Shown here piece by piece: positions 3,935 to 24,518 of a stretch of 64,000 nucleotides of DNA (positions within the stretch are counted from its first letter, which is position 1; the number at the start of each line of letters is the position of its first letter). The DNA lies in NCBI RefSeq assembly GCF_013407955.1, contig NZ_JACCBU010000001.1, forward strand, positions 3,100,001 through 3,164,000. The letters run 5' to 3'. The notes under the pieces were generated by a model. That model was not told where the DNA came from. It did no database searches and worked only from the letters and a program-made list of their open reading frames with translations. The translations under genes were made by a program, and so were the position numbers. This DNA comes from Microlunatus parietis. GTDB taxonomy: Bacteria > Actinomycetota > Actinomycetes > Propionibacteriales > Propionibacteriaceae.

Positions 3935-4948
3935 ATGGCGTCGGAGCAGCAACAGGACCGCGAGATTCGGTGGGGCATCGTCGGGCCCGGCGGCATCGCC
4001 GGGAAGGTGATCAAGGACTTCCCGTACGTCCCGCACGCGCGGGCGGTCGCGGTGGCGTCCCGGTCCCAGCAGCGGGCGGACGCGTTTGCCGCCGAGCACG
4101 GACTGCCGCTGGCGTATGGGAGCTATCGCGAGTTGATCATGAGCGACGAGGTCGACGCACTCTACATCGCAACGCCCCATCCGCAGCATCGTGATCTTGC
4201 GATCGCCGCCGCCGAGGCCGGGAAGGCCGTGCTGGTGGAGAAGTCGTTCGCCGCTACGGCGGTCGGCGCGCAGAAGATGATCACTGCGGCCCGCGCGCAC
4301 GGTGTGTTCGCGATGGAGGCGATGTGGACCCGGTTCCAGCCGGCCATCGTCGCGGTCCGGGAGCTGGTCGACGCCGGCGCGATCGGTGAGGTGCGGCAGG
4401 TCCAGGCCGATCTCGGCGTCAACCGGCCGTACGATCCCGCGGACCGGCTCTACGACCCGGCCCAGGGCGGCGGTGCAGCGCTCGACCTCGGCGTGTACGT
4501 GGTGTCGCTGGCGCTCTACTTCCTCGGCCGGCCGGACACGATCAACGCCCGCGGCTCACTCGCCCCCACCGGCGTCGACGCCGACGCCGCGCTCCTGCTC
4601 GGTTACCAGGACGGCCGGGTCGCGTCCTTGATCACCACGCTGCGGCACCAGACCCCGGGCGCCGCCCGGCTGACCGGGACCGAGGGCTGGATCGACATTC
4701 TGCCGCGGTTCCACCACCCGTCCGCGTTCGTGATCACCCGCGCCGGCCAGGAACCCGAGCGGATCGAGCGGCCGCAGACCGGCGGCGGCTACTGCCACGA
4801 GTTGATCGAGGTCACCGAAGGTATCCGGGCCGGCCGGACCGAGAGTTCGATCATGCCGCTGGACGACACCCTGGCCGTCCAGGAGACGCTGGAGGAGGCT
4901 TGCCGCCAGCTCGGCGTCGAGCACCGCGAAGATGATCATGTTCTGTGA
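3935..4948 (+). CDS. Gfo/Idh/MocA-family NAD(P)-dependent oxidoreductase
   Basis: A 337-residue dehydrogenase. The N-terminal Rossmann fold has WGIVGPGGIAGKVIKDF and the family segment ALYIATPHPQHRD. The C-terminal alpha/beta domain has GGAALDLGVYVV, the usual GGGALLDIGCY-like active-site helix. The common EKP motif reads EKS (VLVEKSF), a substitution seen in trans-dihydrodiol dehydrogenase-like members. The family oxidises sugars, inositols or dihydrodiols; substrate unknown. An in-frame GTG lies 24 bases upstream, but the ATG at 3935 fits a leaderless -10 box. The 3' end overlaps the next gene by 17 bases. Confidence 0.85.
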   Translation: MASEQQQDREIRWGIVGPGGIAGKVIKDFPYVPHARAVAVASRSQQRADAFAAEHGLPLAYGSYRELIMSDEVDALYIATPHPQHRDLAIAAAEAGKAVLVEKSFAATAVGAQKMITAARAHGVFAMEAMWTRFQPAIVAVRELVDAGAIGEVRQVQADLGVNRPYDPADRLYDPAQGGGAALDLGVYVVSLALYFLGRPDTINARGSLAPTGVDADAALLLGYQDGRVASLITTLRHQTPGAARLTGTEGWIDILPRFHHPSAFVITRAGQEPERIERPQTGGGYCHELIEVTEGIRAGRTESSIMPLDDTLAVQETLEEACRQLGVEHREDDHVL

Positions 4949-5459
4949 TCCACGCCGCGCGGCGGCACTCGGCCTGCTCGTCGGCGCCACCACCGCGCTG
5001 GTGGCCTCGGTCGGCTACCGGATCCTGCTGGAGACGACCGGCTACTTCGCTTGGCTGTCCCGCGAGGCGGCCGGTCTCGAATCGGTGTGGTTCCAGAAGG
5101 TGGGGTACGGCCTGCTCTTCTGGGCGTCCGATCCGATGGGCAGCCTCATGATCGCGGTGGCGCCGACCGCCGCGGCCGGCGGCCTGGCGGGGTTCGCGAT
5201 CGGCGCACTGGTGCAGCGGACCGGACGACGAACGGCGCTGCGATCCTGGCTGACCGGGATGCTGGTGTGCTGCCTGTGCGTCGCCGGAGTCGTGGCCGTT
5301 GCCCAAGGGCTGACGCATCCGGACTTCGTGTGGTCGCCGGACTCGGTGCCGATGTTGTGGATCCCGTGTCTGATCTTCGTCGTGACCGGCAGCGCGTTCA
5401 CCCTGTTGCTGCGCCGGCGAGTGCGGCGACTCGCTCCCTCGGTTCAGGCTTCGACGTAG
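4932..5459 (+). CDS. Four-helix membrane protein of unknown function
   Basis: A 175-residue hydrophobic protein with four predicted membrane segments (about residues 10-30, 70-92, 108-128 and 142-162) and a basic C-terminus [12 protein letters not shown]. No family is recognised. Two starts are possible within ATGATCATG at 4932 and 4938. It overlaps the Gfo/Idh gene, suggesting translational coupling. Its end overlaps the convergent recR by 16 bases. Confidence 0.65.
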
Positions 5460-6043
5460 CGGCGTCCCTCGAAGGCACGCCCCAGCGTCACCTCGTCGGC
5501 GTACTCCAGGTCGCCGCCCACCGGCAGCCCGCTGGCCAGCCGGCTGACCTTGACGCCCATCGGGATCAACAGCCGGCTCAGGTACGTCGCCGTCGCCTCA
5601 CCCTCGAGGTTCGGGTCGGTGGCCAGGATCACCTCGGTCACGGTGCCGTCGGCGAGCCGCTGGCAGAGCTCCCTGATCTTGATCTCGTTCGGCCCGATGC
5701 CGTCGATCGGGCTGATCGCACCGCCGAGCACGTGGTAGAGGCCGCGGAACTCGCGGGTGCGCTCGATCGCGACCACGTCCTTGGACTCCTCGACCACGCA
5801 GATCGTGGTCTGGTCCCGCCGGGCGTCGTTGCAGATCCGGCAGCGTTCGCCCTCGGAGACGTTGAAGCACACCTCGCAGAACTTGACCGTTTCCTTGACC
5901 CGGCGCAGCACGTCGGCCAGCCGCAGCACGTCCTCGGACTCCGCGGCCAGGATGTGGAACGCGATCCGTTGCGCGCCGCGCGGACCGATGCCCGGCAGCT
6001 GACCCAGCTCGTCGATCAGGTCCTGGACCGGTCCCTCGTACAC
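5444..6043 (-). CDS. recR: Recombination mediator protein RecR
   Basis: A 199-residue protein, the standard RecR length. It begins [20 protein letters not shown] with the helix-hairpin-helix motif [15 protein letters not shown]4 zinc finger follows ([16 protein letters not shown]). The Toprim domain has [14 protein letters not shown] and [18 protein letters not shown]. RecR works with RecO and RecF to load RecA on SSB-coated single-stranded gaps. The GTG at 6043 is chosen because GGGGGAGG stands 7 bases before it; the longer ATG frame adds a non-conserved tail. It is the last gene of the conserved dnaX-ybaB-recR cluster. Confidence 0.95.
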
Positions 6044-6071
6044 GGCTCGCCTCCCCCTGCGTCCGTACCGC

Positions 6072-6422
6072 TCAGAACGGCAGGCCGGGCAGCCCGGAAC
6101 CGCCCAGCCCCGATCCACCCAGTCCGCCGGCGAGCGGGCCGAGCTTGGCCGCCGCGCCCGCCTTCATCTTGTTGTTCGCGTCGCGGACCGCGGCGATGAT
6201 CAGGTCGGACAGCGTCTCGGTGTCCTCCGGGTCGACCGCCTCCGGCTTGATCGTCAGGCCGGTCAGTTCGCCCGCCCCGGTCAGCGTCGCGGTGACCAGG
6301 TCGCCGCCGGCCGAACCGGTGAACTCGGACTCGGCCAGTTCCTGCTGAGCCTGCATCAACTGCTGCTGCATCGCCTGGGCCTGCGCCAGCAGGCCGGACA
6401 TGTCGCCGCCTTCGGGGATCAT
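6072..6422 (-). CDS. ybaB: YbaB/EbfC family nucleoid-associated protein
   Basis: A 116-residue protein with the family signature [20 protein letters not shown], the amphipathic helix of the tweezer-like dimer. The beta strands [23 protein letters not shown] and the helix [16 protein letters not shown] follow. The Gly/Leu-rich tail [18 protein letters not shown] is typical of the actinobacterial form. The protein binds and compacts DNA. It lies between dnaX and recR, 28 bases before recR, as in most bacteria. Either the first ATG or the internal one (MSGLLAQ) could be used. Confidence 0.92.
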
Positions 6423-6462
6423 CAGGGACCGCTCCGTTTCTCTGGGTGTCGTGCTGACAAGA

Positions 6463-8769
6463 CTAGTGCGCGGCGTCCGACGGTTCCTCGGCGATGATCT
6501 CCGCGCCGAGGTGTCGCTGCAGCAGTTCGGTGTGGGACTGCGTGTCCTCGATCAGCACCGTGTCGTCCCGGTTGGCGGCCGCGTCGCGATCGTCCTCGGC
6601 ATCGTCGTCCTCGGGCTGGGCCGGCCCACTCCTCCGGGTCGGCCGGATCTGCTCCCGGGCCCGGTCCAGGACGGCCTGGTCGACCGGAGTCCCGGGGCTC
6701 GATCCGGGCAGGCTCGCCGGCGTGGGCCAGTCCGCCGCCGGGGAGTCCGGAGCCTGCGCGGACGGTTCCGGAGCCGCCGGACTCGGGGCCTGAGCCGCCG
6801 GCGGTCCGGGATTGCTCGGCCCGTCTTGCGGTACGGGAGCGGCGGTGCCCGTCGGAGCCGCCGGCGGCGCCGGCGGCGCCGGCGGCGGACTGACCGTATT
6901 GCCGCCACCCGGGTTCGCGCCCGGATCGACGATCGCCTCGACCCGCAACTCCGCCCCGAGCACCTGGACCAGCGCGTCGGACAGGATGTCCTCGTTGCCG
7001 CCGCGGGTGAAGCTGTCCCGGGCACCGGCGTTGGTCATCCCCAACACCAGCACGTTGTCCCGCAGGTCGATCACCTGGGCGTTCTGACTGAGCAGGATCC
7101 AGGTGAACCGGCGCTTGCCCTTGATCTCCTCGAGCACCTCCGGCCACAGCCGGCGCACGTCCGCCGCGGCCAGCCCGCCGGGCGGCTGCGGCTCGGGCGC
7201 CGCGGCCGGCGGCGGCGCAGAAACCGCGGCCGGGGTCGGTTCGGGCGGCGTCGGCTGCCCCGGCGCCGCGGCCGAGGACGGAACTGTCGGAGCCGGCGAC
7301 GCTTGGGTGGGCGGCGGCTGGCTCGCAGCCGGCTGGCTTGCTGCCGGCTGGGGGGCTGCCGTCTGGGCGGGCGCCGGCTGAGTCGGAACGGTCTGAGTCG
7401 GAGCTGCCTGAGCCGGGGCTGCCTGAGCCGGGGCCGCGGCGGGCTGGACCTGGGGCGCCGGGGCCGGGCTCGCCGCCGGAGCGCCGGGGTCGCCCATCCC
7501 GATCCGGCGCTCCAACCGGTCCAGCCGCGCGTGCACGCCGCGATCGTCGACGTCGGCGCCGGGCAGCAAGACCCGCGCGCACATCAGCTCCAGGTGCAGC
7601 CGTGGCGCGGTCGTACCCCTCATGTCGGTCAGCCCGACCGCGATCACCTCGGCGGCGCGGGTCAGTTCGCCCGGGCCGAGGGCCGCCGCCTGCGAGGCCA
7701 ACCGTTCCGCCTGATCGCCGGAGACGTCGACCAGCCCGGACGACAGCGCGTTCGGCACGGCGGCCACGATGACCAGGTCGCGCAGCCGGCGCAGCAGGTC
7801 CTCGGCGAACCGGCGCGGGTCCTGGCCGACCTCGATCACCTTGTCCACGCAGGAGAAGACGCCGCCCGCGTCGCCGGCCGCGAACGCGTCCAGGAACTCG
7901 TCCAGCAGCGAGTCCGGCGTGTAGCCGAGCAGCGCCGCCGCGTGCCCGTACGACACCCCGGTGGCGTCGGCGCCACCCAGAAGTTGATCAAGAACCGACA
8001 GCGAGTCCCGGACCGAGCCCGCGCCGGCCCGGACCACCAGCGGCAGCACGGCCGGCTCGACCGCGATCCCCTCCGCCTCGCACAGCTTCGCCAGGTAGGC
8101 GGACAGGGTCTTCGGCGGCACCAGCCGGAACGGGTAGTGGTGGGTCCGGGACCGGATGGTGCCGATCACCTTCTCCGGCTCGGTGGTCGCGAAGATGAAC
8201 TTGACGTGCGGCGGCGGTTCCTCGACCAACTTCAGCAGCGCGTTGAAGCCGGCCGTCGTGACCATGTGCGCCTCGTCGACGATGTAGATCTTGTAGCGGC
8301 TGCTGACCGGCGAGAAGAACGCCCGCTCGCGCAGATCGCGGGCGTCGTCGACACCGCCGTGGCTCGCCGCGTCGATCTCGATCACGTCGATGCTGCCGGG
8401 ACCGCCGGTGGCCAGGTCGCGGCAGGACCGGCACTCCCCGCACGGCTCGGCGATCGGTCCCTGCTCGCAGTTCAGCGCGCGGGCGAGGATCCGGGCCGAG
8501 GTCGTCTTGCCGCAGCCGCGCGGGCCGGAGAACAGGTAGGCGTGGTTGACCCGGTTGTTGGTCAGCGCCCGCTGCAGCGGCGCCGTCACGTGGTCCTGCC
8601 CGATCACGTCCGCGAACGTGTCCGGCCGGTAGCGCCGGTAGAGCGCGAGCTGCGCCACCGACTGCACCCGTACCGCAGCAGGTTCGTCGAACAGAACCTC
8701 GTCCTGTCCGGAGCCCTCGTCGATCCCTGCCTCGTCCACAGACTGCACCTTAGTGTCTGCCGCCGACAC
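6463..8769 (-). CDS. dnaX: DNA polymerase III subunits gamma and tau
   Basis: A 768-residue clamp-loader ATPase. After an unusual 40-residue acidic N-terminal extension comes [18 protein letters not shown]. Walker A is [14 protein letters not shown], the zinc site C-ECRSC follows, Walker B/DEAD is YIVDEAHM, and sensor 1 is FIFATTEP. Residues 370-500 are collar domain, then a long Pro/Ala/Gln repeat-rich linker (positions 7180-7470), then the tau C-terminal region with the DnaE-binding part. The only clear ribosome site, AGGAGG, is 11 bases before GTG 8769, which sits in the loop of a 12-bp hairpin. The GTG at 8747 is an alternative start. Confidence 0.94.
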
Positions 8770-14573: not shown

Positions 14574-14661
14574 GGAGGATTCGCCTAGTGGCCTATGGCG
14601 CTCGCTTGGAAAGCGGGTTGGGTGCAAGCCCTCAGGGGTTCGAATCCCCTATCCTCCGCCA
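14574..14661 (+). tRNA. tRNA-Ser(GGA), host tRNA of the integrated element
   Basis: A complete serine tRNA. The acceptor stem GGAGGAT pairs with ATCCTCC, the anticodon loop CTTGGAAAG carries GGA, a long variable arm is present, and the T arm is GGGGTTCGAATCCCC. The CCA end at 14659-14661 is encoded. The 3' part from 14605 is repeated at 24462-24518, marking it as the attachment site of the element to its right. Confidence 0.96.
14605..14661 (+). repeat. attL of the AICE (57 bp, tRNA-Ser 3' half)
   Basis: This segment runs from the anticodon loop to CCA and recurs at 24462-24518 with three mismatches, all in the variable loop (GCAA here, TAAC there). The last 34 bases are identical. Site-specific integration into a tRNA 3' end leaves exactly this arrangement. 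Confidence 0.92.
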
Positions 14662-14711
14662 CGCGGAAACCAGCCCGTGACCAGGGCGAACGGACCGCAG
14701 TAGCACAGCAG

Positions 14712-14747
14712 AACGCCGGGTCGGCCCGTTTGGGTCGATCCGGCGTT
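14712..14747 (+). terminator. Hairpin after tRNA-Ser(GGA)
   Basis: AACGCCGG at 14712-14719 pairs with CCGGCGTT at 14740-14747. A matching hairpin with the same arms lies beyond attR at 24543-24578, so both att flanks carry this tRNA-distal structure. Confidence 0.55.
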
Positions 14748-14753
14748 TGGCTG

Positions 14754-14775
14754 TCTAGTCTCAGTTCTAGTCTCA
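14754..14775. repeat. Left-end 22-bp integrase arm-type repeat
   Basis: Two tandem copies of TCTAGTCTCA separated by GT. The whole 22-bp block is repeated exactly and in the same direction at 24344-24365 near attR. Paired repeats at both ends of an integrated element are what tyrosine-integrase arm sites look like. The left copy overlaps the restored integrase stop codon. Confidence 0.65.
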
Positions 14776-16013
14776 CTTGCCCGTTTCCGGGTCGTCGTCG
14801 CGGTCTTCGTCGGTGGCCCAGAGCAGCCCGCCGAGCCGCCGAGCGACATCACGCCGGATCGGGTCGGTGACGTGCTGGTACCGGGCAGCCATTGAGGTGC
14901 TGGACCATCCCATGATCGACATCGCGGTTCGTTCCGGAACGCCGAGGACGAGCAGGTTGTCGCCGCCGTGTGCCGCGCATCATGCAACCGAGCGGTACGC
15001 ACTCCGGCGCGCTTCAGCAGAGCCTTCCAGGCGTGGTAGTCCGAATTGAGGTTGACCGGATCGCCAGTCTCCGTCGCGAAGACCCAGTCACCTTCGGCGT
15101 TCCAGAGCTGGCCGGCATTACGCCGCTCCTGGTCCTGGACCTCCCGATGAAGCTTGAGCATGGCCACGAGCTCATCCGGTAGACCGATGACCCGTTTCCC
15201 GGCTCGCGACTTCGTCAGGCCGAGCGTCGGAGTCAGTTGTTTCCGTTCCGGACAGTAGCCCGCTTTCGCGTCGCAGGTTCCTCCGCAGCCGTGACCGTAC
15301 ATCGGACGCTGACGGGTGAACCGGACGCGCAGCGTTGCCGTATCAAGATCAACATCCGACCACTTCAGAGCCAGCGCCTCACCTTGCCGCAGGCCGAGGG
15401 CCAGAGCTATGGCCCACCGAGCGGAGTTCCGGCCGGTGGCGGCAGCATCGAGGATGCGCTGAACCTCATCGATCCTGAACGGTTCGACCGGTTCGGGATC
15501 GACTCGTGGAGCCTTGGCCAGGGCCGCCACGTTACGACCCACGTACTGGCGCCGTTGAGCCTCCCCCAGGGCAGTGCGAATGGTCCGGTGCACCTGGTGA
15601 GCATTGCCCGGACTCGCCCCGGCTTCGATCATCTTCCGGTAGAGCCGTTCGAGGTGCTCCGGTTCCAGCCGCTCGAGCCGGTTCTTACCCAGATTCGGCA
15701 CCAAGTGCGTGCGAACCGCGTTCCGGTACGCGTTGAAGCTCGACTCACGGACAGACGGCCGAGCGATCGTTTCCAACCAATGATCAAGCCAGGATGCGAC
15801 CGTCCACCGCTTCCCTGCCTTGGGCACCGCACCTTGATCACGGGCACGTTCCAGCTTCCGGACCTCGGTAACGACCTCTGCTTTCGACTTCCGCATGACG
15901 TGGCGCCGATCAATGCTGCCGTCATCCTTGAACCCGACCGTGACGCGACCGTGCCAGTAGCCGTCCGAACCTTCGTAGATCGAGGACGCCCGGTTGGGGT
16001 TCCGCGTAGCCAT
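14773..16013 (-). pseudogene. int: Tyrosine integrase with a one-base frameshift
   Basis: The first part encodes a normal AICE integrase: SAM-like N-terminal domain with WTVASWLDHWLETIARPSVRE, the catalytic Arg in ALGLRQGEAL, and the HxxR motif LHDARHTAAT. Just after ACA ACC (opposite 14955-14960) one base is missing. Adding one C restores LLVLGVPERTAMSIMGWSSTS and ARYQHVTDPIRRD, with the catalytic Trp/His position and the nucleophile Tyr, ending at the stop opposite 14773-14775 (about 413 residues). As written, the frame runs out of family into the tRNA region and lacks the Tyr. A sequencing error is the main alternative. Confidence 0.85.
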
Positions 16014-18459: not shown

Positions 18460-18650
18460 CACTTGTCCATCCCGTCAGCGTGCGCGCTCCGGATCAGCCA
18501 GGCCACGACCGGAAACGGCAGCACCCACAGCAGCGCGAGGAAGTTCCCGGACGAGACCTCACCGACCAGCCAGGCCGCGAACACGGCGACCAGAACCAGC
18601 GCCGCCAGCACCAGGCCCGCCACGACGACGACGCGCACCCGGCCGGACAT
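18459..18650 (-). CDS. Small two-helix membrane protein of the AICE
   Basis: A 63-residue protein with two hydrophobic segments, VVVVAGLVLAALVLVAVFAAWLV and LALLWVLPFPVVAWLI, and a short charged tail. No family is recognised. Comparable small membrane proteins accompany the transfer gene in many AICEs and may help spread the element in the recipient (Spd-like role), which is inference. The start codon overlaps the transfer ATPase stop by one base. Confidence 0.65.
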   Translation of the reverse strand: MSGRVRVVVVAGLVLAALVLVAVFAAWLVGEVSSGNFLALLWVLPFPVVAWLIRSAHADGMDK

Positions 18651-20188
18651 CAGGCCACCGCCTGCAGGGTCGGCGCCGCCGAGCGGGGCCGGTAGTACTG
18701 CGCCATCTCGCGGATGTCGTCGTCACTGATCCAGGGGAACCGGAGCCGTACGGCCTCGGGGATGCCATCGACCAGGGCGTAGGCCGTGCCGGGCATGTTC
18801 CGGTCGATCTCGTGACACAGGGCGCCGCGTTCGATGGCGTCCTTGCCCAAGATCATTTCGGTGTCTCCGGCTTCGTTCAGCCGCATCCCGAGCCGCACGG
18901 TGAACAGGCCGCGTTGCGGAACGGCTTCCTTGCGCGGGTCTTGGGTGCACCCGATCACGATGAAGCCGGGTGCGCGGCCTTGGGTGAGGATCCGGGCCAG
19001 CACCGAGGCGATCCGGTCTTTGATCTTGCGGTCGGTGATGTAGCAGGTCAGCGCCGCCATCTCATCGATGAAGATCACATACAGCGGTTCGGCCGGCGTC
19101 GGGATGTGCAGCCGTGACTTGCCCTTCATCTGCTTCAGCCGGTCCGACATCAGCCGTGCCCACCGTTCCAGCGCTTCGGCGAAGTTGATCAGTACGGCAT
19201 CGTTGGCCTTGGCAGCGTCGGGTTCCTCGGTCTCGTCCACCACATCGCCGGTGACGAGCTCGTGGAACATGTCCTCGCCGAACGGGAGCTCGATCAGCTT
19301 CGGATCGATCCCGAGCAGCCGCACCCGGCCCGACCGGATCGCAGGCCCGAGCGCCTTACCGACGTTCCAGATGAACGAGCCCTTACCCGCACCCGTACAC
19401 CCGACGTTCAGAGTGTGATTGCCCAGCAGCGGCAGCCGATACAGGGTCGCGTCCTCGGTCCAGCCGATCGGCAGCGCGGACAGATCGACCGTGTCGGCCT
19501 GGTTCAGTTCGTCCTCGATCGGATGATCAATCGAGGCGACACCATCGCGGAGCGGGTCACGCCGCAGCGCGATCAGGTCAAGCTGTTGCCGGTTCCGGTC
19601 CGGCAGCTTCCGGGCCTTGATCGCCCGCTTGGACTGCCGTTTCCACACCGTCACGACCCGGACGTGTTCCACGTCGAAGGCCTGCGCCAGCCGCGTCGCT
19701 TCCATCGCCCAGTCCGACATCTTCTGACCGCGCAGCACCTGCACCCGTACCCGGTCGGTGTACCGGGAGGACTGGACCCGGCCAAGCTTCGGCAGCCGTT
19801 CCCGGTCAGCCGTGCCCCGGGTCAGTTTCGCCTCAGCCATGCCCGGCTGCCAGAACCGCCGATACACCGCCAGCCGCCGCCACTGGCCACGTGCCGGGCC
19901 GGACACCCACCGCAGGAACGAGTCCGGCGCCTTGCGCTGCCACACGAACCCGCCGACCACCGAGCCCAGGATCAGGCTGATACCGATGATCATCATCGTG
20001 TTCGCGCCCCAGCGGAGCCCGATAGCGACCAGCCCAGCCAGGACCAGCAGCGGCCCGCCGAAGATCGGCGTCGTGCACAGGAACCGGACGAACCGCCCGA
20101 CACCGACCCAGATCACGGCCACGACCTGCAGCCACACCGGGACACCAAGCGACTTCCGCCGCACCTGCACCGCTTCCTTGCGGCTCAT
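18650..20188 (-). CDS. FtsK/SpoIIIE-type DNA transfer ATPase (TraSA/TraB-like)
   Basis: A 512-residue DNA translocase. Two membrane regions occupy residues 18-60 and 64-83. The motor has Walker A GCTGAGKGS near residue 265 and Walker B VIFIDEMAAL near residue 370, then the FtsK-type RAPGFIVIGCTQDPRKEAVPQRG. AICE Tra proteins of this type form hexamers that pump double-stranded plasmid DNA between mycelia. It heads the coupled chain to the WhiB-like gene, the small CxxC gene, rep and xis. Upstream genes 20185-21100 overlap by a few bases, so the whole block is one operon. Confidence 0.92.
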   Translation of the reverse strand: MSRKEAVQVRRKSLGVPVWLQVVAVIWVGVGRFVRFLCTTPIFGGPLLVLAGLVAIGLRWGANTMMIIGISLILGSVVGGFVWQRKAPDSFLRWVSGPARGQWRRLAVYRRFWQPGMAEAKLTRGTADRERLPKLGRVQSSRYTDRVRVQVLRGQKMSDWAMEATRLAQAFDVEHVRVVTVWKRQSKRAIKARKLPDRNRQQLDLIALRRDPLRDGVASIDHPIEDELNQADTVDLSALPIGWTEDATLYRLPLLGNHTLNVGCTGAGKGSFIWNVGKALGPAIRSGRVRLLGIDPKLIELPFGEDMFHELVTGDVVDETEEPDAAKANDAVLINFAEALERWARLMSDRLKQMKGKSRLHIPTPAEPLYVIFIDEMAALTCYITDRKIKDRIASVLARILTQGRAPGFIVIGCTQDPRKEAVPQRGLFTVRLGMRLNEAGDTEMILGKDAIERGALCHEIDRNMPGTAYALVDGIPEAVRLRFPWISDDDIREMAQYYRPRSAAPTLQAVA

Positions 20189-20445: not shown

Positions 20446-20702
20446 GCTGCACCTCCGATGTTGATCATGGAATCGTCCTCTCGTTCCATGTGCTGCTGAA
20501 GTTCGTCGGCGAATTCACGCATCACGTTCGCCAGGTGCCGGACCGCTTCCACGTCCAGCGGAGTCACGGTCCGGGTTCCGGCCAGGAAGGTCAGGAAGTA
20601 CCGCGAGGTCCACACCGACAAGATCGGCGGGGCCGTCGGGTAGGACACACACGCGGCCGTGATCGGCGCGGCCAGCGGCACCCGCAGGCTGACCGGTTCC
20701 AT
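20442..20702 (-). CDS. Hypothetical AICE protein (86 aa)
   Basis: An 86-residue protein. The first half is strand-rich with SVWTSRYFLTFLAGTRTVT, the second a helix LDVEAVRHLANVMREFADELQQHMERED. No family is recognised. It overlaps the genes on either side by 1-4 bases. By position it may accompany replication or transfer, which is inference only. Confidence 0.65.
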   Translation of the reverse strand: MEPVSLRVPLAAPITAACVSYPTAPPILSVWTSRYFLTFLAGTRTVTPLDVEAVRHLANVMREFADELQQHMEREDDSMINIGGAA

Positions 20703-21100
20703 TACGCGGCCTGCCCTTCCGGCTTCGCACCCTGACCAGCAGCACGACCCGGCTTCCCGTCCGCCAGCCGCTCAGCCCGCCACGACTCCCGCAGCCCACC
20801 ACCCTTGGTGACGTTGGCCGAGCAGACCAGGTCGACGAACTCCACCGGCGTGAACGCCTTCACGTCCGGCTGAGCATCCGAGCCGGCCTGGACCGGAGCC
20901 GTCACCGTCACGTGCTTGCCGAACGACACCGACTGATACAGAACCTCGACCTCCCACAGCAGCATCCCGGTATCGGCGTCACGGGCCTGCTCATCCGACT
21001 GACGCCGACCGTTCGGCGTGTCCATCCACTCATTCACCGGCGCCACGTTCCCCGTCGCCACCATCTGCTGCCGCTTGCTGTCCACCGCGTAGATCGCCAT
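20702..21100 (-). CDS. Hypothetical AICE protein (132 aa), first gene of the transfer operon
   Basis: A 132-residue protein starting MAIYAVDSKRQQMVATGNVA, with DADTGMLLWEVEVLYQSVSFGKHVTVTAP in the centre and an Ala/Gly-rich tail. Proteins of this pattern are common next to tra in actinobacterial plasmids, but no function is known to me. GAGGAG lies 7 bases before the ATG. The upstream 120 bases hold the repeated TATAGT boxes that should drive the operon. Confidence 0.72.
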   Translation of the reverse strand: MAIYAVDSKRQQMVATGNVAPVNEWMDTPNGRRQSDEQARDADTGMLLWEVEVLYQSVSFGKHVTVTAPVQAGSDAQPDVKAFTPVEFVDLVCSANVTKGGGLRESWRAERLADGKPGRAAGQGAKPEGQAA

Positions 21101-21117
21101 CTCAAGCTCCTCAAGTT

Positions 21118-21153
21118 TAGGGGGTCTAACGTCACTATAGAGGGACTATAGAC
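21118..21153 (-). promoter_or_regulatory. Divergent control region with repeated CTATAG boxes
   Basis: CTATAG occurs at 21135-21140 and again at 21147-21152. On the minus strand this gives two TATAGT hexamers 12 bases apart, either able to serve as the -10 box of the transfer operon. The paired boxes lie one helical turn apart, as expected for a dimeric repressor of the GntR/KorSA or HTH type. No korSA-type gene is present; the neighbouring HTH-SLOG protein is the likeliest binder. Confidence 0.5.
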
Positions 21154-21220
21154 ACAGGTTCGCGGAGAAATCAACAGGGGGGCTAAAGTTGGCCTCTGGC
21201 AATGGGTTGGAGAGGCGACA

Positions 21221-22000
21221 GTGAGCGACCAGGATCTACTGAAGGGCGCTGCGGAGATCGAGGATCCGATCGAGCGCGCCCGCACGCTGAGCCGTCTGCT
21301 CACCCAGTACCAGGCAGCCGTCACCGACGCGTCGAGGATGCGGCGCCAGGCAATCGAGGAAGCCCTCGCCGCTGGCATGACCCAGGACCAGGTGGCGAAG
21401 GCCGTCGGACTCACACCTGGCCGCATCTCGCAGATGCGCAAGGCCGGTGCCCCGAGCCCGGTCATCACAGGTTGGTCGCTGGCAGCCAGCGCCGAACAGC
21501 CCCACCATGTGGCCATCTGCGGGAGCCGGACGGACGATGCCCCCCGCCAGATCGTTGACGCAGCTGTGCGGGCGCTTGCCGGTCTACTTCTCCGTCACCG
21601 GTTCCAGGTCAACCACGGTCCGGTCGGTGTCGGAACAGAGGTCCTGACCTACATCGCCGACAACGACAAACCGCCCGGTCTGACCACAATCGGCGGCATC
21701 ATCGGCCACGCGAACGTAGTCCGCGATGTTGAGTACATGCTCATCGTTGGCGGCGGCAAGGGAACCCTGGTCGAAGCCCACCTCGCGTTATCCGCGAATC
21801 AGAAGATTCTTCCGATGCCGGCCAGCGGCGGAACTGCTGCCCGTGTGTACGAAATGCTGGAGCGCGACCCCAAATACCGGACATGGCTAAGTGATGAGAG
21901 TTTCGCTGCACTCGCTACCGCAAATGCTGACGAGTACGCGCAGATTGTCGAACGTGAGATTACGGGCACGATCCAGGAATCGGGAGAAGTAGATGAGTGA
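21221..22000 (+). CDS. HTH-SLOG fusion protein (AICE cargo)
   Basis: A 259-residue protein with two parts. Residues 30-75 hold a helix-turn-helix, RRQAIEEALAAGMTQDQVAKAVGLTPGRISQMRKAG. Residues 93-240 look like a SLOG (LOG/DprA/TRPM-like) Rossmannoid domain: VAICGSRTDD at the start, HGPVGVGTEV, and GGGKGTLVEAHLA, which matches the LOG-type GGxGT-x2-E site. SLOG proteins bind or cleave nucleotide-derived ligands and are common in conflict systems. It is divergent from the transfer operon, so it may control that operon in response to a nucleotide signal. It overlaps the next gene by 8 bases. Confidence 0.72.
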   Translation: MSDQDLLKGAAEIEDPIERARTLSRLLTQYQAAVTDASRMRRQAIEEALAAGMTQDQVAKAVGLTPGRISQMRKAGAPSPVITGWSLAASAEQPHHVAICGSRTDDAPRQIVDAAVRALAGLLLRHRFQVNHGPVGVGTEVLTYIADNDKPPGLTTIGGIIGHANVVRDVEYMLIVGGGKGTLVEAHLALSANQKILPMPASGGTAARVYEMLERDPKYRTWLSDESFAALATANADEYAQIVEREITGTIQESGEVDE

Positions 22001-22763
22001 CGAGATGACGCGGCCCCACGTGCTCCTAAGCTGCGCGATGTCCATTGATGGATACATCGATGACGCAACCGACCGCCGCCTGTTGTTGTCCAACGATGAG
22101 GACTTCGACCGCGTCGACGCCGAGCGAGCCAAGGTTGACGCCATCCTCGTTGGCGCCTCCACGATCCGCCAGGACAACCCTCGCTTGCTCGTCCGCTCCG
22201 ATGACCGCCAGGCCGCCCGCGTCGCAGCAGGCCTACCAGCCAGCCCGACGAAGGTCACGCTCACCGGGACCGGAAACCTAAACCCCGAATCGAAGTTCTT
22301 TACGGCAGGTGACGTAGAGAAGCTCGTCTACTGCCCCAGCGAAGCAGCGACGAAGACGACCGCGTTGCTCGCCGAGAATTCTTCCGTAATTGTCATCGAC
22401 GCTGGCGAATCACTCGACCTCAGCCGGATCTTGACCGATCTTGCCGCCCGTGGAATTGAGCGCCTTATGGTCGAAGGCGGTCAGACGATGCACACGCAAT
22501 TCTTGACTGCTGGCCTCGTAGATGAGCTGCAACTCGTTGTTGCCCCGTTCTTTGTAGGAAACTCGCAGGCTCCGCGTTTCGTTGCCGATGGCAAGTATCC
22601 ATGGACCTCTGACAATCGCATGGAGCTGGAGGCTGTGCAGCAGATTGGAGGGGTTGTCCTCCTCCGGTACCAGCCCGGCCCGAAGGGGCCAAGGCACGTA
22701 ACCACGCCCTACGCGCCTCGGATTGCAGCAGATCGACTCGAATCCGACCATCCGGCCCCGTAG
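21993..22763 (+). CDS. RibD C-terminal-like reductase (AICE cargo)
   Basis: A 256-residue protein of the RibD_C/pyrimidine-reductase fold: VLLSCAMSIDGYIDDATDRRLLLS at the start, AILVGASTIRQDNPRLLVR, then IERLMVEGGQTMHTQFLTAGLVDELQLVV. This is the NADPH-dependent reductase of riboflavin-like pathways, without the deaminase half. There is no other riboflavin gene here. Coupling to an HTH-SLOG gene suggests that it makes or changes a nucleotide-like ligand, which is inference. GC content and codon use are lower than in chromosomal genes. Confidence 0.82.
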   Translation: MSDEMTRPHVLLSCAMSIDGYIDDATDRRLLLSNDEDFDRVDAERAKVDAILVGASTIRQDNPRLLVRSDDRQAARVAAGLPASPTKVTLTGTGNLNPESKFFTAGDVEKLVYCPSEAATKTTALLAENSSVIVIDAGESLDLSRILTDLAARGIERLMVEGGQTMHTQFLTAGLVDELQLVVAPFFVGNSQAPRFVADGKYPWTSDNRMELEAVQQIGGVVLLRYQPGPKGPRHVTTPYAPRIAADRLESDHPAP

Positions 22764-22853
22764 ACGAGATCGTGCCCCCATACTGCTGATCAGGCGACGC
22801 CGATCAGTCCTGGAGGTGTCGTTGCGGATCGAGTGAGCAAATGGGGGGACAGC

Positions 22854-23828
22854 ATGGCAATACGGACTGGGCCTGGCTATTCAGCCAATCCAACCGACAA
22901 CGTTTATCACTACACGAGTTCCGAAGCTGCGCTACTCGGAATACTCAGCAGTGGCAAGATTCGACTTTCATCGTTCGCGAATGTCAACGATCCGCGCGAG
23001 TCAAAGCGCAATATCAACGGATTCGTGGTGAACACAGATAGTGACATCCAACCATCCGGGCAAGATGGTATGGCTGTGAATCAGTACACAAGGACGTACC
23101 TCGGTACGCAAATGAAGGTAGCGTGCTTCACGCGCGACTACATGACAGATGGATCGATGGCATTTGGTGATGAGCTCACAGGGTGGTCCCATGCTGCGCA
23201 ATGGGCGCACTATGCGGGCCGCCATTCCGGTATCTGTCTTGAGTTTAGCGCTACGAAACTCGAAGACTGCCTACGACAGCAGCTCGCCGAATACGGTCCG
23301 GTCTTCTACGGAGACGTTGAGTACTACCTAGATGAATTTAGCCTTGTGCCAATCTCTGAGGTTCGATACGAATACATGCGAGAGTTCGGTCTTGACGCTG
23401 CCTTGAGTCATTATATCGAAAGGCACTACCAGACCTTGTTCCTGCGGAAACACAGCGATTGGCAGAGCGAGCACGAGTATCGACTCCTCTTTCTAGATCC
23501 AACCGGCTCCATGCATCCGCGCGAACTCGACATTCGCACCGCGCTAACCGGGATCTATGTAGGCCCAGCATTCCAGGAATCGCGCATAAGCATGGTGTAT
23601 GAATTCCAGGAACGATATCCAGATGTTTCCTTTTATCGAATCTATGACGAATCAGATGGACGCCCGGTTCTTCAGCGCATGGCTCGGGAATCTCTGATTG
23701 AGATCCTCGCTCAGCGAAAGCCACCATTCGAGCCTACGAGTACGGGCCCCCTCACTGAACGCCTCGCGCTCCTGCGGGCTGCCGATGCTGCCCGGCTGAG
23801 CAGCCGGTCGGAGCCTCATCCTGGATGA
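22854..23828 (+). CDS. DUF2971 family protein (AICE cargo)
   Basis: A 324-residue protein with the DUF2971 opening NVYHYTSSEAALLGILSSG and RLSSFANVNDPRESK, then VACFTRDYMTDGSMAFGDELTGWSHAAQWAHYAG, ICLEFSATKL, and HSDWQSEHEYRLLFL. The family is uncharacterised and is often found in accessory or defence-associated loci. The ATG at 22854 has GGGGGGA 5 bases upstream; a GTG at 22833 is further from any ribosome site. Its DNA is clearly more AT-rich than the rest of the window, a sign of recent transfer. Confidence 0.82.
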   Translation: MAIRTGPGYSANPTDNVYHYTSSEAALLGILSSGKIRLSSFANVNDPRESKRNINGFVVNTDSDIQPSGQDGMAVNQYTRTYLGTQMKVACFTRDYMTDGSMAFGDELTGWSHAAQWAHYAGRHSGICLEFSATKLEDCLRQQLAEYGPVFYGDVEYYLDEFSLVPISEVRYEYMREFGLDAALSHYIERHYQTLFLRKHSDWQSEHEYRLLFLDPTGSMHPRELDIRTALTGIYVGPAFQESRISMVYEFQERYPDVSFYRIYDESDGRPVLQRMARESLIEILAQRKPPFEPTSTGPLTERLALLRAADAARLSSRSEPHPG

Positions 23829-24343: not shown

Positions 24344-24365
24344 TCTAGTCTCAGTTCTAGTCTCA
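24344..24365. repeat. Right-end 22-bp integrase arm-type repeat
   Basis: Identical, in the same orientation, to 14754-14775: two TCTAGTCTCA units separated by GT. It lies about 100 bases before attR. Confidence 0.65.
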
Positions 24366-24461
24366 GTCGCCACCGTTCGCCGACGTTCGGGATGGGAGAC
24401 GACCGACGGCAGCCGAGCCGGTTCACGGTGGGAGTTGTCCGGCCGAACACCCGTTGGCGGA

Positions 24462-24518
24462 CTTGGAAAGCGGGTTGGGTTAACGCCCTCAGGGGTTCGA
24501 ATCCCCTATCCTCCGCCA
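24462..24518 (+). repeat. attR of the AICE (partial tRNA-Ser copy)
   Basis: This is the 3' part of tRNA-Ser(GGA) from the anticodon loop to CCA. It matches attL in 54 of 57 positions, with differences only in the variable loop (TAAC for GCAA). It lacks the acceptor 5' strand and D arm, so it is not a functional tRNA. Confidence 0.92.

Follow-up and report, generated by a model that had tools for sequence, protein, structure and literature searches.

A recurrent HTH-SLOG and RibD-type reductase gene pair in an integrative element of Microlunatus parietis, a candidate ligand-responsive switch

A helix-turn-helix (HTH) regulator with a SLOG-type sensor domain and a RibD-type reductase form a recurrent, overlapping gene pair that we describe here from a 9.9-kb actinomycete integrative and conjugative element (AICE) of Microlunatus parietis. 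The AICE lies in a 64,000-nucleotide stretch of the host genome (7.24 Mb, one contig), G000:C1:3100001-3164000, which is referred to below as the window, and it encloses the HTH-SLOG and RibD genes together with a third gene of the DUF2971 family. We lean, if modestly, towards the view that HTH-SLOG and RibD together switch transcription of the element's own operon in response to a ligand, which RibD would make or remove, and that DUF2971 is independent of this two-gene switch. The genes in question are the following (positions are those of the window):

21221-22000, plus strand: HTH-SLOG gene, 259 aa (open reading frame)
21221-21472, plus strand: HTH (DNA-binding) part, residues 1-84; GC 68.3%, GC at third codon positions (GC3) 82.1
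21473-22000, plus strand: SLOG domain, residues 85-259, with the GG-x-x-GT-x-x-E motif; GC 61.3%, GC3 68.6
21993-22763, plus strand: RibD_C / Rib7-like reductase, 256 aa, coupled by overlap; PF01872 RibD_C 142.9 bits against a cut-off of 24.1
22833-23828, plus strand: DUF2971 gene, 331 aa, neighbouring cargo and probably outside the module; PF11185 49.5 bits against a cut-off of 22

A first-pass annotation of this DNA had proposed these three reading frames, with an 8-base overlap between the first two, and both the coordinates and the overlap (21993-22000) are as it described them. It had also taken the overlap to couple the HTH-SLOG protein to the reductase, and the SLOG-RibD pair is indeed a real, recurrent and translationally coupled regulator-enzyme pair. 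In another family (f90), for which 298 genomes were scanned, a profile built on the SLOG part alone gave 12 matches, spread over 11 genomes, and all 12 directly precede a RibD that is 58-66% identical to that of the window; the SLOG and RibD genes overlap by 8 nt in five of these loci, by 4 nt in five, by 0 nt in one and by a longer stretch in one. An alignment scan with RibD, whose best PDB match is 5xux (E 2e-32), found 507 relatives. The best 80 loci among them were retained with flanks of up to 5 kb, and a SLOG gene stands directly upstream of RibD in four of these 80: two in Actinomadura, one in Myceligenerans and one in Actinorugispora, the last being a remnant truncated at its N-terminus. 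The two surveys partly overlap, as L087 and L133 are one and the same piece of DNA and the RibD of L139 is that of L050. A class-wide search matched 8 of 394 genomes, the SLOG part being matched only in the window, G930 and G736; Actinomadura (G1195, bearing the A. hibisca RibD) belongs to the same class as the host. No description of the SLOG-RibD pair was found among the matches listed for the open-licence PubMed Central (PMC) literature; the survey of SLOG domains by Burroughs et al. (2015), which falls outside that scope, may contain one.

The motif GGGKGT that had been noted in the HTH-SLOG protein is present at residues 177-182. All Pfam HTH and SLOG matches of the window protein itself fall below cut-off (HTH_3 20.4, LDcluster4 16.8, STALD 16.0), and its identity is drawn from its relatives and from a modelled fold. 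Three relatives share a C-terminal domain of about 175 residues with the window protein at 40-46% identity, and one of them, L049, scores 28.1 bits with LDcluster4 (PF18306, SLOG cluster 4; cut-off 26.3), L050 and L100 remaining under. Residues G177, G178, G181, T182 and E185 are invariant in the four aligned proteins (GG-x-x-GT-x-x-E), a motif of the GGxGTxxE type that we take to define the SLOG superfamily. An AlphaFold model of the HTH-SLOG protein from four sequences has a mean confidence (pLDDT) of 70; taken by tens of residues, the values are 73-95 over residues 91-250 except at 151-160 (49), and they are low in the HTH part and linker. The best Foldseek match of the model is the SLOG domain of ThsA (7uxs, E 9e-6), and the best match in VIA-align 2 is again ThsA SLOG (8bto, Z 16.7, root-mean-square deviation 2.5, 158 residues), followed by rows for TM1055, a Moco carrier, DprA and LOG with Z down to about 9. 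The Rossmann-like SLOG fold that had been anticipated is thus found in the predicted model.

The N-terminal part resembles sigma-r4 and HTH_3 domains (below the Pfam cut-offs). Its residues 9-78 are 46% identical to the regulator of an AICE-like element from the same genus (L153), and further relatives of this HTH are carried by plasmids pRL1 and pVMKU. The GC3 of the HTH part (82) differs from that of the SLOG part (69; RibD 71), which weakly suggests a fusion. Searches with the full-length protein matched 2 of 198 genomes in the family, including the window's own, and these matches covered essentially the HTH part at most; 5 of 396 genomes in the phylum, one of them the own genome and one with a match reaching residue 135; three plasmid records, essentially in the HTH part only; and no phage. 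A full-length scan of genome contigs and a scan of viral contigs with the HTH-SLOG alignment gave no relative, and a plasmid search with the L049 protein returned four records that match in the HTH and linker only.

SLOG and RibD stay constant while the DNA-binding part varies by lineage. The Actinomadura relatives have an XRE-like HTH with Pfam scores below cut-off, and the Myceligenerans relative L100 has an HTH_3 domain of 46.7 bits. In L150 (G991, 3976-7725) RibD is overlapped by a frame of 1249 aa, whose domain order, judged by eye, is SARP-NB-ARC-TPR followed by SLOG at the C-terminus. Conversely, nine loci with the HTH family of the window bear a different C-terminal domain (HTH-X), and a PP2C phosphatase gene follows HTH-X directly in eight of them (L153 4739-6374, L033, L035, L036, L037, L043, L044 and L045; the exception is L034). 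L153 is the AICE-like element of the same genus, with a RepSA replication initiator 47% and an FtsK-like protein 31% identical to those of the window, and there, too, the HTH gene is placed opposite the transfer genes. The SLOG/RibD pair has apparently been exchanged module-wise with the HTH-X/PP2C pair. Note also that L044 has a gene with an integrase annotation that is in fact related to PP2C, and that Vsr and C5 DNA methyltransferase genes lie near the Myceligenerans HTH-SLOG-RibD pair (L100 1652-3401).

RibD relatives are found behind other regulators as well. In 37 of the best 40 plasmid records (of 146), RibD is directly preceded, at a distance of 12-101 nt, by a relative of an HTH-TPR regulator, and an HTH-TPR frame (by eye) precedes RibD in both viral contigs that were read, of three found. 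In two Frankia, RibD is preceded by a DUF5753 regulator (106.9 bits) in one and by an AlbA_2 protein (54.6 bits) in the other. Separately, a TetR-like regulator (by eye) of Kutzneria overlaps RibD by 4 nt (L093 4399-5004).

A role in transfer control, which the first-pass annotation had considered for the HTH-SLOG protein, is supported by operator-like sites in the 120-nt divergent gap that separates the pair from the AICE operon on its left. Three sites in this gap resemble TTTAGGGGGNCTAAA and are of the type TTTAGGGGG-N-CTAAA:

21116-21130, plus strand: operator-like site TTTAGGGGGTCTAAC, 1 mismatch to TTTAGGGGGNCTAAA
21136-21150, plus strand: operator-like site TATAGAGGGACTATA, 3 mismatches, overlapping a leftward -10-like TATAGT
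21173-21187, plus strand: operator-like site AACAGGGGGGCTAAA, 3 mismatches

Elsewhere in the 64 kb there is one further site with up to three mismatches (three spacer variants allowed), and the gap contains one promoter-like match, the level expected from shuffles. The pattern was tested at ten loci with this HTH, over the 200 nt that precede the gene or, for L033, L035, L036 and L037, the HTH match. At six of them (the window, L153, L034, L044, L035 and L036) the best site was reached in 0 of 100 shuffles. In Actinomadura, the gaps between HTH-SLOG and its divergent operon contain the palindrome CCGTGG-N7-CCACGG, exact in six of nine and altered in three, and the noncoding DNA around it is otherwise poorly conserved across the nine aligned gaps.

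In the proposed switch, HTH-SLOG would control both the leftward AICE operon and its own expression, its HTH part binding the TTTAGGGGG-N-CTAAA-like sites that lie between this operon and the pair. The SLOG domain, with its predicted ThsA-like fold, would provide a pocket for a nucleotide-type ligand that tunes DNA binding, and the co-translated RibD/Rib7-like reductase would make, alter or remove this ligand, for which a compound of the ribosylaminopyrimidine or another nucleotide type seems the likeliest. The outcome would be regulated excision, replication and transfer of the AICE, with DUF2971 as cargo outside the switch.

A number of observations weigh against such a switch, and several of them speak for an alternative that we hold to be rather unlikely, namely that RibD is metabolic cargo performing a flavin- or pyrimidine-related step, HTH-SLOG merely regulating itself and having no role in AICE transfer. 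Among the best 80 RibD loci (of 507), RibA lies near RibD in 46 and a deaminase in 16, and upstream of the deaminase-linked chromosomal RibDs there is mostly no regulator by eye (the exception is L110). RibD outlasts a decayed SLOG in L087/L133 and L148; L149 is without the HTH and the start of SLOG, and the HTH part of L146 is cut in that frame. The host genome has a large RibD_C family (42 matches), and the window RibD stays under the NCBIfam cut-offs for riboflavin equivalogs (TIGR01508, 126.5 of 186.45; TIGR00227, 124.7 of 150.15); closeness to Rib7 and the RibA or deaminase neighbours of its relatives would favour a ribosylaminopyrimidine nucleotide as its substrate. A single origin of the SLOG-RibD pair was rejected, the SLOG-linked RibDs not forming one clade (5 changes; p-AU 0.00086 in an approximately unbiased test, a value that is optimistic because its 48 rows were picked after viewing a 102-row tree), and a metabolic link of a loose kind would agree with this result as well. 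The operator evidence, finally, is only partly independent: the pattern was drawn after six of the ten tested loci had been viewed, and among the other four (L033, L035, L036, L037) two pass, L035 and L036. The best site was reached by shuffles, and is thus not significant, in L043 (30/100), L045 (18/100), L033 (27/100) and L037 (9/100), and other windows of the same locus also match, 2 of 26 in L035 and L036 and 8 of 76 in L043. A purely metabolic role is, however, at odds with the operator-like sites, which lie across the gap that separates the pair from the divergent AICE operon, and with L153, where the same slot of a related element holds HTH-X and PP2C; moreover, neither RibA nor a deaminase was found at L049, L050, L087 or L100, or among the seven AICE proteins that the Pfam domain scan covered. 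Conjugal immunity or partner sensing of the kind known from Pif of pSAM2, with the enzyme marking cells that already hold the element, seems improbable to us: AICEs often join a regulator to a nucleotide-type enzyme, as parts of PMC3218068 relate for xre-nud-mdp clusters and Pif, but the seven scanned AICE proteins include no NUDIX match and the chemistry of RibD differs.

The first-pass annotation had gone further and joined all three genes into one conflict or sensing module. In such a system HTH-SLOG would sense a nucleotide signal set by RibD, and DUF2971 would be the toxic effector, a reading to which we give very little credence. It would agree with the ThsA-like SLOG and with the position of DUF2971 on the same strand, 69 nt behind RibD. 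DUF2971 also matches the PADLOC candidate PDC-S31 (61 bits), of which no mention was found in the open-licence PMC literature, and it has no sequence match in PDB; the family DUF2971 itself comes up there in at least one paper among the matches listed for that literature. For a DUF2971 model from five sequences (pLDDT 68), Foldseek found nothing at E 0.001, and rows 1-12 in VIA-align 2 have Z from 7.1 to 4.3, where values below 8 can be chance; judging by title and from recall, we take these 12 rows to be chains of the ADP-ribosyltransferase superfamily (Tpt1/KptA, DarT and others). Both DUF2971 alignments have invariant residues at H26, E213 and E215, and DUF2971 may be ADP-ribosyltransferase-like, a lead from the model rather than proof. 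The trio itself does not recur at the loci compared. DUF2971 has no match in the best 80 RibD loci (0/80, within flanks of up to 5 kb), in the short SLOG loci (1.5-kb flanks) or in L150-L152; on plasmids it occurs in six records, in three of which the region was viewed and has other neighbours, and a first viral scan with DUF2971 gave no relative. The lower GC that had been noted for this gene is real (53.9%, against 63.5% for HTH-SLOG and 61.0% for RibD), and with this GC break and a gap of its own DUF2971 looks like separate cargo.

The AICE setting, also part of the first-pass annotation, is borne out by an att repeat within a tRNA gene, an integrase, RepSA and an FtsK-type transfer protein whose score is slightly below cut-off:

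14574-14661: tRNA-Ser(GGA)
14605-14661, plus strand: att repeat, inside tRNA-Ser(GGA)
14649-16013, minus strand: tyrosine integrase; PF00589 52.3 bits
16254-17975, minus strand: RepSA replication initiator; PF20199 300 bits, 47% identity to the G092 element
18650-20188, minus strand: FtsK-like transfer protein; 22.1 bits, just below the cut-off of 24, 31% identity to the G092 element
20702-21100, minus strand: nearest divergent AICE gene, 132 aa, without a Pfam match
24462-24518, plus strand: second att repeat, the other end of the AICE; 95% identity to 14605-14661 over 57 nt

The integrase, RepSA, FtsK-like and small genes all point leftward, and HTH-SLOG, RibD and DUF2971 point rightward towards the other att site. 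For neither the 132-aa divergent gene nor the integrase did tblastn at 1e-3 find homology to the G092 element, kinship with which is supported by RepSA and FtsK only. A 28-nt repeat, TCTAGTCTCAGTTCTAGTCTCA..., occurs near both ends of the AICE (14754-14781 and 24344-24371, 93% identity), and its copies are possibly integrase arm sites.

In Actinomadura, eight of the nine gaps contain a conserved frame of about 40 aa that ends in AARGRA[TS]QPSDGG[SG][TS]GKSDLND[GN] and is followed at 2-9 nt by a divergent JmjC_2 gene (L049, L050, L131, L140, L141, L143, L144 and L146; L145 has a variant missed by the regular expression). Together with the JmjC_2 region it makes a candidate operon for a ribosomally synthesized and post-translationally modified peptide (RiPP) beside HTH-SLOG-RibD. 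In L151, aldo/keto reductase and kinase-like genes (by eye) come next, and the matching frame of L049 (813-1775) is without a Pfam match.

To our knowledge, the timing of excision and transfer is understood for few AICEs, and a regulator with a ThsA-like domain and a co-translated reductase would offer a testable chain from enzyme to ligand, regulator and operator. A wider generalization is on balance unlikely: actinomycete RibD-type reductases might be signal enzymes, whose reduced pyrimidine-nucleotide or NADP-derived messenger would be read by interchangeable regulators (HTH-SLOG, AfsR-like-SLOG, HTH-TPR and XRE-DUF5753), mobile elements using it to time conjugation and chromosomes to run other operons, such as the candidate RiPP cluster. 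Should RibD indeed yield such a messenger, this compound would add a new signal of the nucleotide type and would connect SLOG sensors known from immunity with the way conjugation is controlled.

Among known systems, Thoeris comes closest to the sensor: the SLOG of the window has, in its model, the same fold as the sensor domain of ThsA, its best structural match. However, Thoeris joins SLOG to a Sir2 or other effector, with a TIR protein close by and a cyclic ADP-ribose isomer as ligand, whereas the window SLOG is fused to an HTH, and no Sir2 or TIR match occurs in the seven AICE proteins scanned. Sporadic HTH-SLOG fusions in phages, predicted to sense NAD or ADP-ribose derivatives, are the same kind of fusion with predicted transcriptional control by a nucleotide ligand, as the main text of PMC9503650 has it; that text does not mention RibD, whereas here the reductase is the constant partner. 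The enzyme shares its family and conserved core with Rib7/RibD_C reductases (PDB 5xux, 2azn), from which it differs by scoring below the NCBIfam riboflavin cut-offs and by its tie to a regulator gene. In Streptomyces plasmid operons (e.g. SAP1), RibD likewise comes immediately after the gene of an HTH regulator whose C-terminal part is long, but TPR replaces SLOG and a deaminase gene comes next in four of the five regions viewed (SAP1 is without it). KorSA and Pra are control genes of pSAM2, a GntR regulator being among them. With Pif they give, as here, an AICE self-control that includes an enzyme-like part (for Pif, in part of PMC3218068), built around a NUDIX protein, with no SLOG or RibD, where the unit of the window is SLOG and RibD. 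More widely, regulators of AICEs and other integrative and conjugative elements lie beside, or are fused to, NUDIX, HD-phosphohydrolase or nuclease genes, as recorded in parts of three papers (PMC3218068, PMC11706625, PMC9513070). The HTH-X and PP2C pairs (L153, pRL1, pVMKU and others) have the same HTH family as the window and, in some, an operator-like motif, and they carry another C-terminal domain and a phosphatase where the window has SLOG and a reductase.

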